Made by a program: the position numbers and the translations under genes. A model generated the notes under the pieces. That model did not search any database. It was given only the letters and a program-made list of their open reading frames with translations, and was not told the origin of the DNA. This document shows positions 2,615 to 5,494 of a stretch of DNA of 5,494 nucleotides, one piece after another (within the stretch, counting starts at the first letter, position 1; the number at the start of each line of letters is the position of its first letter). This stretch comes from an uncultured Pseudomonas sp. Its GTDB lineage: Bacteria; Pseudomonadota; Gammaproteobacteria; Pseudomonadales; Pseudomonadaceae. The stretch spans positions 1 to 5,494 of the forward strand of contig CAMPJN010000274.1 of the NCBI GenBank assembly GCA_946886875.1. The letters are read 5' to 3'.

Positions 2615-2630
2615 TGGCGCAGAGTTTGCA
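2615..2630 (+). promoter_or_regulatory. Sigma-54 (RpoN) promoter of the electron-transfer operon
   Basis: TGGCGCAGAGTTTGCA matches the sigma-54 consensus TGGCAC-N5-TTGCA with one change. The invariant GG (2616-2617) and GC (2628-2629) are exactly 10 bp apart, as required. The preceding C and the following A also fit the extended consensus. Transcription would begin near 2641, leaving a leader of about 150 nt before the ATG at 2792. Activation would need an enhancer-binding protein; the NtrC-like site at 2503-2519 fits that role. Confidence 0.75.
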
Positions 2631-2640
2631 ATTGCGCTGG

Positions 2641-2691
2641 CAACACAACGACTGTGCCAATGGCGGTGCAGGGTTGACAGACAAAGACGTC
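2641..2691 (+). ncRNA. Probable ANTAR (NasT-type) target hairpins in the operon leader
   Basis: Two small hairpin motifs share a loop of the form A-x-x-G-A-C. The second is clear: GAC (2680-2682), hexaloop AAAGAC (2683-2688), GTC (2689-2691), with further broken pairing outside. The first holds AACGAC (2647-2652) between short complementary arms (CACA 2644-2647 with TGTG 2653-2656, or ACA/TGT around a 7-base loop); its stem is weak. ANTAR-domain antiterminators such as NasT, EutV and AmiR are known to recognise paired hairpins whose six-base loops have A at position 1 and G at position 4. Combined with the terminator just downstream and the sigma-54 promoter upstream, NasT is the most likely partner. 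Confidence 0.62.
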
Positions 2692-2741
2692 GTGACCGGT
2701 GCAGGCAAGTTCGCTTGCGCTCCGGCCGCGGCGTTTTTTTT
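2688..2741 (+). terminator. Intrinsic terminator (attenuator) within the operon leader
   Basis: The arm starting at 2688 pairs with the arm ending at 2733. I count 18 pairs, including two G-U, with two single mismatches (2695/2726 and 2700/2721) and a two-base bulge at 2703-2704. The apex is GCAAG-TTCG-CTTGC, a stable UUCG tetraloop. A run of eight T (2734-2741) follows at once. It lies 50 nt before the start codon, so transcription would stop before the genes unless it is prevented. The base of its 5' arm (2689-2691) is also the 3' arm of the AAAGAC hairpin, so the two structures are mutually exclusive: the hallmark of an antitermination switch. Confidence 0.85.
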
Positions 2742-2751
2742 CGGCTCAACC

Positions 2752-2779
2752 CCGCGCCCGCCACACAGGCGGTGCGCGG
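2752..2779 (+). other. Leader hairpin abutting the ribosome binding site
   Basis: CCGCC (2758-2762), loop ACACA, GGCGG (2768-2772), extended by six further pairs (2752-2757 with 2774-2779) past a single bulged T at 2773. This 11-bp GC-rich stem ends at the base just before the AGGAGG Shine-Dalgarno. It could influence ribosome access or protect the transcript, but may simply be a spacer structure. Confidence 0.5.
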
Positions 2780-2785
2780 AGGAGG
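2780..2785 (+). promoter_or_regulatory. Ribosome binding site of the fusion oxidoreductase
   Basis: AGGAGG lies 6 bp before the ATG at 2792. It fixes the start there rather than at the in-frame GTG at 2699, which falls inside the leader terminator and would add 31 residues of arginine-rich, non-family sequence. Confidence 0.85.
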
Positions 2786-2791
2786 AAGCAG

Positions 2792-4795
2792 ATGCTGCTC
2801 GATCGTGTCACCGCCATTTCATCCGCTGCATCCCCTGTTGCGCTGCCCTTGGCATCGCTGGCGCCCGCCGTTGCACCCTTGATCATCGTCGGCGCCGGTC
2901 CGGTAGGCGTGCGTTGCGCCCAGGAATTGCTGCGCCGTGGCTATCCCGGGCAGGTCCTGCTGTTCGGCGACGAGCCCTGGGCGCCCTATGACCGGGTGCG
3001 CCTGAGCGCGCTGTTGGCCGGCGAGGTCGACCTGGACGGCATCACCACCCCTGGCGTGGAAGGCCGGTTGAGCAGCCATCTGGGATGCCGGATCAGCCAT
3101 ATCGAGCCGCTGGGCAAGTATGTGGAAGATGCTCAGGGCCGGCGTTTCCACTATTCCCGCTTGATTCTCGCCACCGGCTCGCGCGCGCATATCCCCGAGG
3201 TGCCTGGCGTCGACTTATCCGGAGTTTTCGTTTTTCGCGATCTGGGCGACACCGTCGCCTTGCTCGCCCGCACCGCGCGCAGCCGCCACTGTGTAGTAGT
3301 CGGCGGCGGCCTGCTCGGTCTGGAAGCGGCGCGCGCTATGCAGCGCGGCCATACCCAGGTGACCCTGGTGCAGCAGGCGCCGCGGCTGATGAACCGGCAA
3401 TTGGACGAGCCGGCTGCCGAGCTGTTGCTGCGCCAGGTACGCGAGCTGGGTATCGAGGTGCTGCTGGGTGCCGGTTTGGGCGGCGTGCTCGGTGCCGGGC
3501 GGGTCAGTGGCGTGCGCCTGCGCGATGGCCGCGAACTGGCTTGCGATACGGTGCTGCTGGCCACCGGCATTCGGCCCAATATCGAACTGGCGCTGGCGGC
3601 GCAACTGCGGGTCGGCCACGGCATAGTGGTCGACGATGAACTGTCGACCTCCCATGCTGACATCCATGCCATCGGAGAATGCGCCGAGCACCGTGGCCTG
3701 ACTTACGGTCTGGTCGCGCCTGGTTTGGAACAGGCTGCGGTGCTGGCTGCGCGGCTGACCGGCGAAACGGCGCATTACCGTGGCTCGTTGCAGGCGACCC
3801 AGCTCAAGGTGGCCGGTCTGCCGGTGTTCAGCGCCGGCGAGGTGGTCGAGCCGCTTAAGCGCATCAACCAGCGCGAATACAGCTACAGCGACCCGCAACA
3901 GGGCGGCTACCGCAAGTTGCTGGTGCACCGTGGCCGCCTGCTCGGTGCCCTGGCGGTGGGCGAGTGTGCGGAAAGCCGGCGCTGGCTGGACGCCCTGCAG
4001 CAGGGCCGGCGCATCGGCCCGTTGCTGCTCTGGCGCTTTCGCCGCGAGGGCCGCTTGTGGCCGGCGGCCAGCGAGCAGGTCGCGCAGTGGCCGGCCAATA
4101 CTGTCGTCTGCCAGTGCATGGGCGTCCAGCGCGGCCAACTCAGTGCCTGTATCGCCAACGGCGCCGGGGATATCGCCGAGCTGGGTCGGCAATGCGGCGC
4201 CGGCAGCGTCTGCGGCGGCTGCAAACCCTTGCTGCAGAACCTGCTGGGCGACAGTGCGCCACGCCAGGCCGAGCGCGGGTCCGCTGGGCTGGCACTGGGC
4301 GGTGGTCTGGCCGTGGCCGCGGTGCTGGCCTTCAACCAACTGCCGGCCCTGGCGGCGCCGACTTCGGTGTTGCAGGCGGGGCTCAGCTGGCTGTGGCAGG
4401 ACGGCTTCTGGCGCCAGGTCAGCGGCTTCTCATTGCTCGGTATGGCCCTGCTCGGCCTGTTGATGTCGCTGCGCAAACGCCTGCCGAAGTTGCCCCTCGG
4501 CGCCTTCGCCAGCTGGCGCCTGCTGCATGTGGCCCTCGGCGTGCTGGCCCTGCTGCTGCTGGTGCTGCACACCGGGTTGGACGGTGGGCAGAACCTCAAT
4601 CGCTGGTTACTCGCCGATTTTCTCCTGCTGCTTGCCGTCGGCGGCCTGGCGTCGGCTTTGCTCGCGGTCGAGCACAAATTGCCGCCGGCCCTGGCCCGGC
4701 GCGCCCGGCAGCTGTTGCTGTGGGGCCACATAGTCGCGGTCTGGCCGTGGCCGGCGCTGCTCGGCGTGCATGTGCTGTCGGTTTATTACTTTTAA
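2792..4795 (+). CDS. NirB/NasB-like FAD oxidoreductase fused to BFD [2Fe-2S] and di-heme b membrane domains
   Basis: The 667-residue protein probably passes electrons from NAD(P)H across the inner membrane. An Ala/Pro-rich stretch of 30 residues leads into an FAD-binding GAGPVG (34-39), a NirB/NasB-like PYDRVRLS (65-72), LATGS (126-130), a second dinucleotide fold GGGLLGLE (171-178) and the closing FAD motif IHAIGECA (291-298). A BFD-type iron-sulphur domain has C440-x-C442 and C474-x2-C477, 31 residues apart. Five predicted membrane helices follow: about 498-517, 543-560, 574-594, 605-625 and 641-664. Helices 3 and 5 carry H579/H593 and H646/H660, both HX13H, as expected for two bis-histidine b hemes. 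Basic loops RKRLPK and ARRAR fall on the cytoplasmic side, so the flavin end is cytoplasmic. The sirohaem reductase part of NirB is absent. It is followed after 9 bp by a multiheme cytochrome c. Nitrate or nitrite assimilation is suggested by the leader only. Confidence 0.85.
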   Translation: MLLDRVTAISSAASPVALPLASLAPAVAPLIIVGAGPVGVRCAQELLRRGYPGQVLLFGDEPWAPYDRVRLSALLAGEVDLDGITTPGVEGRLSSHLGCRISHIEPLGKYVEDAQGRRFHYSRLILATGSRAHIPEVPGVDLSGVFVFRDLGDTVALLARTARSRHCVVVGGGLLGLEAARAMQRGHTQVTLVQQAPRLMNRQLDEPAAELLLRQVRELGIEVLLGAGLGGVLGAGRVSGVRLRDGRELACDTVLLATGIRPNIELALAAQLRVGHGIVVDDELSTSHADIHAIGECAEHRGLTYGLVAPGLEQAAVLAARLTGETAHYRGSLQATQLKVAGLPVFSAGEVVEPLKRINQREYSYSDPQQGGYRKLLVHRGRLLGALAVGECAESRRWLDALQQGRRIGPLLLWRFRREGRLWPAASEQVAQWPANTVVCQCMGVQRGQLSACIANGAGDIAELGRQCGAGSVCGGCKPLLQNLLGDSAPRQAERGSAGLALGGGLAVAAVLAFNQLPALAAPTSVLQAGLSWLWQDGFWRQVSGFSLLGMALLGLLMSLRKRLPKLPLGAFASWRLLHVALGVLALLLLVLHTGLDGGQNLNRWLLADFLLLLAVGGLASALLAVEHKLPPALARRARQLLLWGHIVAVWPWPALLGVHVLSVYYF

Positions 4796-4804: not shown

Positions 4805-5494
4805 ATGAAGTACGCAATCTGGGCGCTGTGGTTGTCGACCCTGCTGGCTGTGGCCGGCTGGTACGGCTATCGCCTGTATGCCGGCGAAGAGCTGCAAGTC
4901 TTCAACCCGGGGCCGCTGTCGGCCGGCCACCATCAACTGGAGCAGGCCTGCGGCGCCTGCCATGTCAGCCCAATGGGCGGCGGCGAGGTGCTGCAGCAGG
5001 CTTGCGTCAATTGCCATGGCGATGAACTGAAAACCGCCCGTGACGCCCACCCGCAAAGCAAGTTCACCGACCCGCGCAATGCCGATCGCCTGGCCCATCT
5101 GGACGCGCGCTACTGCCTGGCCTGTCACGTCGAGCATGCGCCCGAGCGCACCCGGCCGATGGCGGTGACCCTGCCCGACGACTTCTGCGTGCACTGCCAT
5201 GCGGACATTGCCGAGGACCGTCCCAGCCACCAGGGCATGGCCTTCGATACTTGCGCCAGCGCCGGCTGTCACAACTACCACGACAACCGCGCGCTCTACG
5301 AAGACTTCCTGGTCAAGGGCGCCGACCAGCCGCTGCTGCTAGAGATCGCCCGCATCGCCGCGCCAGCACCGTTGGCAGATAAACACCCTGACTGGCAGAT
5401 ACCGGCCGAGGTGCCGCAGCCCGACGCCCCCCGCGAGCAACTGAGCGCCGAAGCGGTCGCCGATTGGTTGGCCAGCGGCCATGCCGAAGCCGGG
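4805..5494 (+). CDS. Multiheme cytochrome c (cytochrome c3-like), 3' end outside window
   Basis: 230 residues are visible and no stop is reached. The N-terminus (MKYAIWALWLSTLLAVAGWYG) is a short hydrophobic signal sequence or uncleaved anchor; AVA at 15-17 is a possible cleavage site. Covalent heme motifs follow at C49GACH, C67VNCH, C104LACH, C128VHCH and C150ASAGCH. The last is CX4CH, a spacing known from cytochrome c3-type proteins. Extra histidines at 42-43, 82, 98, 111, 142 and 159 could be distal heme ligands, favouring low-potential bis-His hemes. Residues 160-230 have no heme motif, and the visible end DWLASGHAEAG may lead into further ones. It must work in the periplasm, where c hemes are attached, and is the natural electron partner of the membrane heme domain encoded just upstream. 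Its own partner is unknown. Confidence 0.88.
   Translation, partial: MKYAIWALWLSTLLAVAGWYGYRLYAGEELQVFNPGPLSAGHHQLEQACGACHVSPMGGGEVLQQACVNCHGDELKTARDAHPQSKFTDPRNADRLAHLDARYCLACHVEHAPERTRPMAVTLPDDFCVHCHADIAEDRPSHQGMAFDTCASAGCHNYHDNRALYEDFLVKGADQPLLLEIARIAAPAPLADKHPDWQIPAEVPQPDAPREQLSAEAVADWLASGHAEAG

Follow-up and report, generated by a model that had tools for sequence, protein, structure and literature searches.

A candidate nitrate-induced chain for electron export from NAD(P)H to the periplasm, built around a NirB-type flavoprotein fused to a membrane domain

The window analyzed here is a stretch of 5,494 nucleotides from contig CAMPJN010000274.1, and its source is probably a Pseudomonas, since the closest named relatives of its fusion protein among the matches listed are from Pseudomonas zhanjiangensis (79%) and Pseudomonas benzenivorans (73%). 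The gene for this protein (2792..4795, plus strand) is a single open frame of 667 codons that joins a NirB-type flavoprotein, a BFD ferredoxin domain, and a di-haem-type membrane domain in one chain. It lies behind an RNA leader of nitrate type and ahead of a gene for a multihaem cytochrome c. We propose that the products form a nitrate-induced chain that exports electrons from NAD(P)H to the periplasm, and a probability of roughly 0.6 is assigned to export and nitrate control taken jointly. The architecture, the conserved ligands, a topology bias, the operon, a leader motif, and co-occurrence with nitrate uptake genes are all supported by the data below.

In the proposed chain, the inner-membrane fusion dehydrogenase would accept electrons from NAD(P)H at its FAD and pass them one at a time to the BFD [2Fe-2S] cluster. 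They would then move to an inner haem b (H579–H646) and an outer haem b (H593–H660), and from there to a membrane-anchored periplasmic cytochrome acting as an 11-haem wire; a haem-Cache protein, a small cytochrome c, or both would receive them next. Induction of the operon would depend on nitrate or nitrite, acting through a NasT-type ANTAR protein that blocks termination in the leader. Cofactor binding, the direction of flow, NasT control in the source organism, the final acceptor, and the purpose of the chain are the parts of this proposal that we infer.

Architecture of the fusion protein and its membrane domain

Pfam matches place an FAD/NAD(P)H domain at residues 30–302 (2879..3697, plus strand; Pyr_redox_2, PF07992, E 4.9e-51), a Rubredoxin_C-type domain at residues 335–405 (3794..4006, plus strand; PF18267, E 2e-12), and a BFD [2Fe-2S] domain with C440, C442, C474, and C477 at residues 438–485 (4103..4246, plus strand; Fer2_BFD, PF04324, E 3.8e-9). 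The best NCBIfam model for the chain is NirB (TIGR02374), which has the three domains in the same order and aligns residues 30–493 with profile positions 1–473 of 794 (E 4e-110). Judged by sequence, NirB is the best match to the flavin half, though its 369 bits fall under the model cut-off of 578. No sirohaem domain was found among 23 Pfam matches to the chain, and the TIGR02374 alignment ends at position 473. The chain is best described as the redox half of NirB, with the place of the sirohaem half (profile 474–794) taken by a membrane domain. No Pfam match, nor any among the best 25 of 73 NCBIfam matches, spans the whole chain, which agrees with a preliminary description of this DNA in which no named enzyme with such a layout was recognized. 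The same description had identified the three-part fusion and the BFD cysteines, and its open reading frame, coordinates, and domain order were right. A nitrite-reductase name is attached to at least 20 of the 120 matches listed, and these names are probably wrong. In its proposed action the fusion is comparable to transmembrane NAD(P)H oxidoreductases, but it stands outside the NADPH oxidase/ferric reductase family, and it is not a NirB nitrite reductase.

Conservation was assessed in an alignment of 142 sequences picked by similarity to the query, comprising P0001, the 120 matches listed (query coverage 94–100%), and 21 of 24 genome loci. None of the 142 departs from the four BFD cysteines or from H579, H593, H646, and H660 of the membrane domain, which, given how the set was chosen, shows constraint inside the family and not the rarity of exceptions. 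Among 369 sampled Gammaproteobacteria, 23 had a full-length fusion at E 1e-110 or better; each of these aligned through residue 667 without an internal stop, and identities went down to 35%. In the genus sample, 1 of 298 had the fusion, P. benzenivorans; in the phylum sample it was present in 2 of 398, with P. benzenivorans again among them. A scan of genome contigs gave 41 loci, three of which (L001–L003) align through residue 667; the others hold the flavoprotein/BFD part or less. An assembly artefact or frameshift merging two genes, in favor of which nothing was found, is already refuted by the 23 full-length genomes and can be dismissed. This survey of homologues, with the frame intact in relatives and the fusion recurring among Gammaproteobacteria, turned up nothing against the preliminary description.

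The C-terminal part of the chain (4280..4789, plus strand) contains five membrane helices, as had been described. An AlphaFold2 model of the last 176 residues (492–667), made with 26 input sequences, has the five helices (pLDDT 91.1, pTM 0.84) at about 497–516, 538–563, 572–594, 602–629, and 632–666, the last broken at residue 651. In the model the invariant histidines, which are the predicted haem b ligands, form pairs 14 residues apart, H579/H593 on helix 3 and H646/H660 on helix 5. In NADPH oxidases and ferric reductases, the inner and outer bis-His haem pairs draw on helices 3 and 5, each of which supplies two histidines spaced by about 14 residues, and the fusion follows this rule. Lysine plus arginine averages 5.5 in loop 2–3 and 4.1 in loop 4–5, against 0.6 in loop 3–4 and 0.2 in the C-terminal tail; the N-side of helix 1 (2.7) and loop 1–2 (2.1) do not discriminate between the sides. 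With loops 2–3 and 4–5 basic and loop 3–4 and the tail not, the composition supports a placement of the flavin/BFD half inside and the C-terminus outside. From this topology follows the predicted pairing of H579 with H646 near the inside and H593 with H660 near the outside. The earlier suggestion of a wire from NAD(P)H to the membrane thus gains support from the order of FAD, BFD cluster, and two candidate bis-His haem sites, and from the positive-inside topology.

The preliminary comparison with NADPH oxidases and ferric reductases, similar in logic but with an unrelated flavin domain at the opposite end, also holds. There an NAD(P)H flavin domain feeds two stacked bis-His haem sites from inside to outside, and the fusion would do likewise. 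In the fusion, however, the flavin fold is unrelated and N-terminal (Pyr_redox_2, with the chain ending at helix 5), whereas theirs is C-terminal and of ferredoxin-reductase type; the fusion also has an additional [2Fe-2S] relay and five helices, and it lacks a match to their membrane family (FRD, PF01794). Among 26 members of the membrane-domain family, Pfam matches at E up to 0.5 included DUF4405 in 16 (best 2.4e-4), Ni_hydr_CYTB in 6 (best 1.9e-6), and Ferric_reduct (PF01794) in 6 (best 6.7e-4; none in the query chain), accompanied by scattered unrelated membrane families. DUF4405, Ni_hydr_CYTB, and FRD belong to a common clan, the di-haem cytochrome b superfamily. A viral structure library gave no match to the membrane domain, the VIA-align rows for it were mixed helical bundles, and a PDB sequence search with the membrane-domain profile returned a single meaningless row. 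A search for free-standing versions, covering proteins of about 97–308 residues, scored 7997 candidates and found 18, of which 17 lie on contigs shorter than 6 kb. The parts of the fusion each come from known superfamilies; for the assembly no family model or structure was found, and neither the fusion nor the operon is described in the titles or abstract openings listed in searches of open-licence literature.

Multihaem and other partners in the operon

The gene downstream of the fusion (4805..5494, plus strand) is cut by the window end, and its 230 encoded residues contain an N-terminal membrane anchor and five haem motifs (four CxxCH and one CX4CH) of a multihaem cytochrome c with 11 motifs in full-length relatives. 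Neighbors of the fusion gene were counted in 24 fetched neighborhoods of relatives, the less frequent ones by neighbor clustering with Pfam run on single examples. A multihaem cytochrome gene lies downstream of the fusion in all 24; 23 have 10 CxxCH motifs, and L078, which is partly masked, shows 4. Across 90 sequences there are, besides the 11 haem motifs, exactly 11 further invariant histidines, a number that would fit bis-His ligation of 11 haems.

The second half of the protein resembles octahaem cytochromes (hydroxylamine oxidoreductase and octahaem nitrite reductase). Profiles of relatives were aligned by hhalign with three template groups and their union, in local and global mode. Haems 6–10 mapped to octahaem haems 2, 3, 5, 6, and 7 in 8/8 alignments, haem 11 mapped to octahaem haem 8 in 6/8, and a permuted haem order scored lower. 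A counterpart of octahaem haem 4 was not found, since haems 7 and 8 of the relatives have no further haem motif between them, and no CxxCK motif was seen in the multihaem partners of the 24 loci. Octahaem nitrite reductase is described as having its active site at haem 4 (PMC12285233). The lack of this catalytic haem and the 11 invariant histidines suitable for bis-His ligation argue, as the best reading of the sequences, for a wire rather than an enzyme, with its second half on an octahaem, hydroxylamine-oxidoreductase-type scaffold. The protein differs from octahaem cytochromes further in five extra N-terminal haems and in its membrane anchor. The decahaem DmsE model matched it weakly (38 bits against a cut-off of 192), and NrfA and octahaem nitrite reductases matched over short stretches.

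The third gene of the operon, present in 23/24 loci, encodes a haem-Cache (Tll0287-like) protein, and PF11845 was matched in both examples tested. Like the Tll0287-like or sCache_heme proteins described in PMC12889525, it is a stand-alone member with a CxxCH motif. Tll0287 is reported there to ligate its haem by Cys/His (PMC12889525), whereas the operon proteins, apart from CxxCH and the N-terminal signal/lipobox region, are free of cysteine (22/22), so the mature protein lacks the second cysteine needed for such ligation. The haem-Cache protein had no PDB match. A small cytochrome c gene is clustered in 9/24 loci and also occurs in P. benzenivorans, with a Cytochrome_CBB3 match in two of two tested. 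Globin genes lie near 13/24 fusions (globin in 10 and truncated globin in 3; four examined with Pfam). At locus L002 (12572–13933), a truncated globin gene and then a Fer2/FAD/NAD reductase gene follow directly behind the operon, the latter possibly encoding a globin reductase.

Leader RNA and the link to nitrate

Upstream of the fusion, at 2616..2693 on the plus strand, lies a narK-RNA-like cis-regulatory leader that matches positions 1–72 of the 72-position Rfam model RF03032 (32.9 bits; E 0.0018 for the whole window and 9e-5 for 2550–2830). Minimum-free-energy and centroid folds of 2650–2698 both contain two consecutive plus-strand hairpins, P1 (2652..2671; 7 bp, hexaloop AAUGGC) and the bulged P2 (2672..2697; hexaloop AAAGAC), each with A as the first loop base and G as the fourth. 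A fold of 151 bases (z −4.32 against shuffles) instead forms a terminator-like stem (2683..2741, plus strand) ending in eight T (2734–2741), and a terminator scan found 2, where shuffles gave a mean of 0.7 (sd 1.0). In the 151-base fold, bases 2683–2694, which form the loop and 3′ arm of P2, pair with 2727–2738, which takes in the start of the T-run. As these bases take part in both structures, P2 and the terminator-like stem are mutually exclusive, as antitermination requires. The hexaloops of ANTAR targets, those of the Klebsiella nasF leader included, are described as starting with A and carrying G as their fourth base (PMC3369931). Two six-base loops with these bases, ahead of a terminator, are the arrangement recognized by NasT/NasR, and on its predicted folds the leader carries this ANTAR/NasT signature of nitrate antitermination. 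The preliminary description had not noted this leader.

Related leaders occur in other genomes. Rfam models were run on 25 relatives' loci (13 + 12, with L066 left out), with narK RNA found in 2, P11 in 1, and no match in the remainder. The narK RNA upstream of the P. benzenivorans fusion (L042) scores 44.7 bits, above the gathering score of 43.2, and that of L057 scores 28.7. A match to the Pseudomonas small RNA P11, which we take to be a NasT-controlled nitrate leader, lies directly upstream of the fusion gene in L054 (1268–1422; 35.4 bits, gathering score 70). The nitrate locus of P. benzenivorans (L097) has a similar tandem motif before NrtA (17922–17886) and a second at the start of a 528-residue open reading frame as called (10339–10304), so that this species has similar leaders before both the fusion and NrtA. 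The 12-mer of P2 occurs upstream of 9/25 fusions, against 0.006 expected per region. A pattern derived from the loops found both hairpins in 4/25 regions and P2 in 9/25, counts biased toward the pattern, as some of these sequences had served to design it. Two general hexaloop scans found 4/25 regions (shuffled mean 0.02) and 5/25 regions (shuffled mean 0.04, reverse strand 0, other windows 5/916); both missed the leader of the window, because P2 has bulges.

The leader also bears on the start of the fusion gene. A longer in-frame start, GTG at 2699, is available and falls within the leader/terminator, while a ribosome-binding site, GGAGGAGG (2778..2785, plus strand), precedes ATG 2792. For these reasons ATG 2792, the start chosen in the preliminary description, is kept as the better candidate.

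The genomic context points to nitrate as well. Near the fusions of the 24 loci are genes for NasT-like regulators (8/24, with the ANTAR domain confirmed in two), NrtA-like proteins (7/24), NrtB-like proteins (8/24), and porins (5/24). An NrtA-like match at E 1e-80 was present in 21/23 fusion genomes versus 56/346 others (Fisher p 8e-14), and at E 1e-150 in 19/23 versus 42/346 (p 5e-13). Some matches at E 1e-80 are weaker paralogues, and both p values are too small because the genomes are related and not independent, but the contrast is still large.

Weighing of the proposal, and the rest of the window

Several results count against nitrate-induced export. The narK RNA match in the window lies under the gathering score (32.9 versus 43.2 bits), and short pieces of the leader are not predicted to be more stable than shuffled sequences (z −1.66 for 2650–2698, 0.48 for P2 alone, and −0.45 for another piece). 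Only 2 of the 25 relatives' loci searched contain narK RNA, one of them above the gathering score, and the P2 12-mer precedes only 9/25 fusions. Fusion genomes G056 and G289 have no NrtA match, and G085 and G315 have a weaker match only. The membrane fold had no PDB match at E 0.001 in Foldseek (best hit talin, E 0.17). Permuted profiles of the 11-haem protein nevertheless score against octahaem proteins, and only the first 230 residues of that protein, ending after haem 5, lie in the window, the remainder being known from relatives. No clear catalytic acceptor or dedicated reductase was found in the conserved operon core. When the 23 fusion genomes were compared with 23 chosen NrtA-positive genomes lacking the fusion, neither of the two candidate terminal acceptors examined, NapB (6/23 versus 7/23) and CCP_MauG (17/23 versus 15/23), was enriched. 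Finally, the stand-alone haem-Cache protein of P. putida is described as binding nitric oxide (NO) weakly (PMC12889525).

The two strongest alternatives differ from the proposal mainly in the acceptor. One is a redox valve, in which the chain, as a non-pumping NAD(P)H:cytochrome c reductase, would feed a terminal oxidase by way of the small cytochrome c and so deliver electrons to oxygen, easing over-reduction at times of change in nitrogen metabolism. The small cytochrome c genes in 9/24 loci and in P. benzenivorans, with Cytochrome_CBB3 in the two tested, favor it, as does the lack of a dedicated reductase in the conserved core. Nitrate assimilation already uses reductant, however, so that a nitrate-linked electron dump would be odd, and the small cytochrome is not clustered in 15/24 loci; such a valve is conceivable but on balance doubtful. 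The other is a periplasmic N-oxide reductase, acting on nitrite, NO, or hydroxylamine at the haem-Cache protein or at an unrecognized open haem of the 11-haem protein. The nitrate leader and NrtA co-occurrence, the globins near 13/24 loci, the octahaem relatives, which are nitrogen-cycle enzymes, and the absence of the Tll0287-type cysteine ligand from 22/22 operon haem-Cache proteins would all suit such an activity. Yet octahaem haem 4 has no counterpart, CxxCK is absent, the P. putida protein is a weak NO binder, and 11 invariant further histidines serve 11 haems, though one of them could be catalytic instead of a ligand. This possibility is rather unlikely.

An assimilatory metal reductase would act on Fe(III) or a different metal beyond the inner membrane, as ferric reductases do, and so cover the demand of nitrate assimilation for iron and molybdenum. 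It would account for histidine spacing and helix positions like those of NADPH oxidases and ferric reductases, and multihaem wires often reduce metals. A neighbor of about 740 residues that by eye resembles a TonB-dependent receptor is shared by 3/24 loci (L074, L094, L095). Inspection by eye of neighbor clusters of 3 loci or more in the 24 loci found no other recurring metal-related gene, and the link to nitrate is much stronger, which makes a metal reductase improbable. Reverse flow, in which electrons from the periplasm would travel through the 11-haem wire to NAD(P)+ or to a cytoplasmic partner engaged in nitrate reduction, is allowed by centers that are all reversible in principle, and eight electrons are needed for nitrate assimilation. 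Inward electrons would nevertheless oppose the membrane potential and run uphill to NAD(P)+, and the relatives examined have separate NirB-like and NasA-like genes; this direction is highly improbable.

Export from NAD(P)H to the periplasm under nitrate control is thus the reading we prefer. In Proteobacteria, electrons are generally considered to reach the periplasm by way of the quinone pool. The membrane potential assists electrons that move outward, and such movement yields no conserved energy. Since the chain would bypass quinone while electrons leave the cytoplasm, no energy conservation is expected, and an assimilatory or protective role would fit better than respiration. The likeliest use would be to provide the periplasm with reducing power while nitrate is assimilated, and the handling of nitrite/NO is the leading candidate. 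This guess follows from the Flp-Bjgb-NasC system of Bradyrhizobium, whose nitrate operon encodes a flavoprotein and a single-domain globin that are described as protecting against NO from nitrate assimilation (PMC4724949). The resemblance lies in an NAD(P)H flavoprotein that is under nitrate control and whose gene accompanies those for a single-domain globin and nitrate uptake; Flp differs in serving NasC and NO defense, and the portions of that paper drawn on here describe no membrane domain or multihaem partner (PMC4724949). A more specific version is offered only tentatively and is itself unlikely. In it, a hydroxylamine-oxidoreductase-type enzyme would have lost its catalytic haem and become a wire that, coupled to a NirB-derived transmembrane dehydrogenase, reduces periplasmic nitrite/NO upon induction by nitrate, and periplasmic nitrogen-oxide chemistry would be powered straight from NAD(P)H without quinone.

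If export is correct, electrons from NAD(P)H would cross the membrane directly, much as in NADPH oxidases but through a protein built from nitrite-reductase parts. The chain would show how a nitrogen-cycle enzyme scaffold can be turned into a wire. Found in 23/369 sampled Gammaproteobacteria, it is not rare, and it predicts an unrecognized branch of the nitrate regulon.

The remainder of the window holds the 3′ part of dnaB, followed by two minus-strand genes and then the fusion gene. These two genes, divergent from the fusion and assigned by Pfam, encode a WYL-domain/HTH_11 regulator (1200–1901) and a glyoxalase/VOC-family protein (2004–2402). Between dnaB and the next gene lies an imperfect inverted repeat (1102–1159) with 16-nt arms (1102–1117 and 1144–1159) that are 88% complementary.

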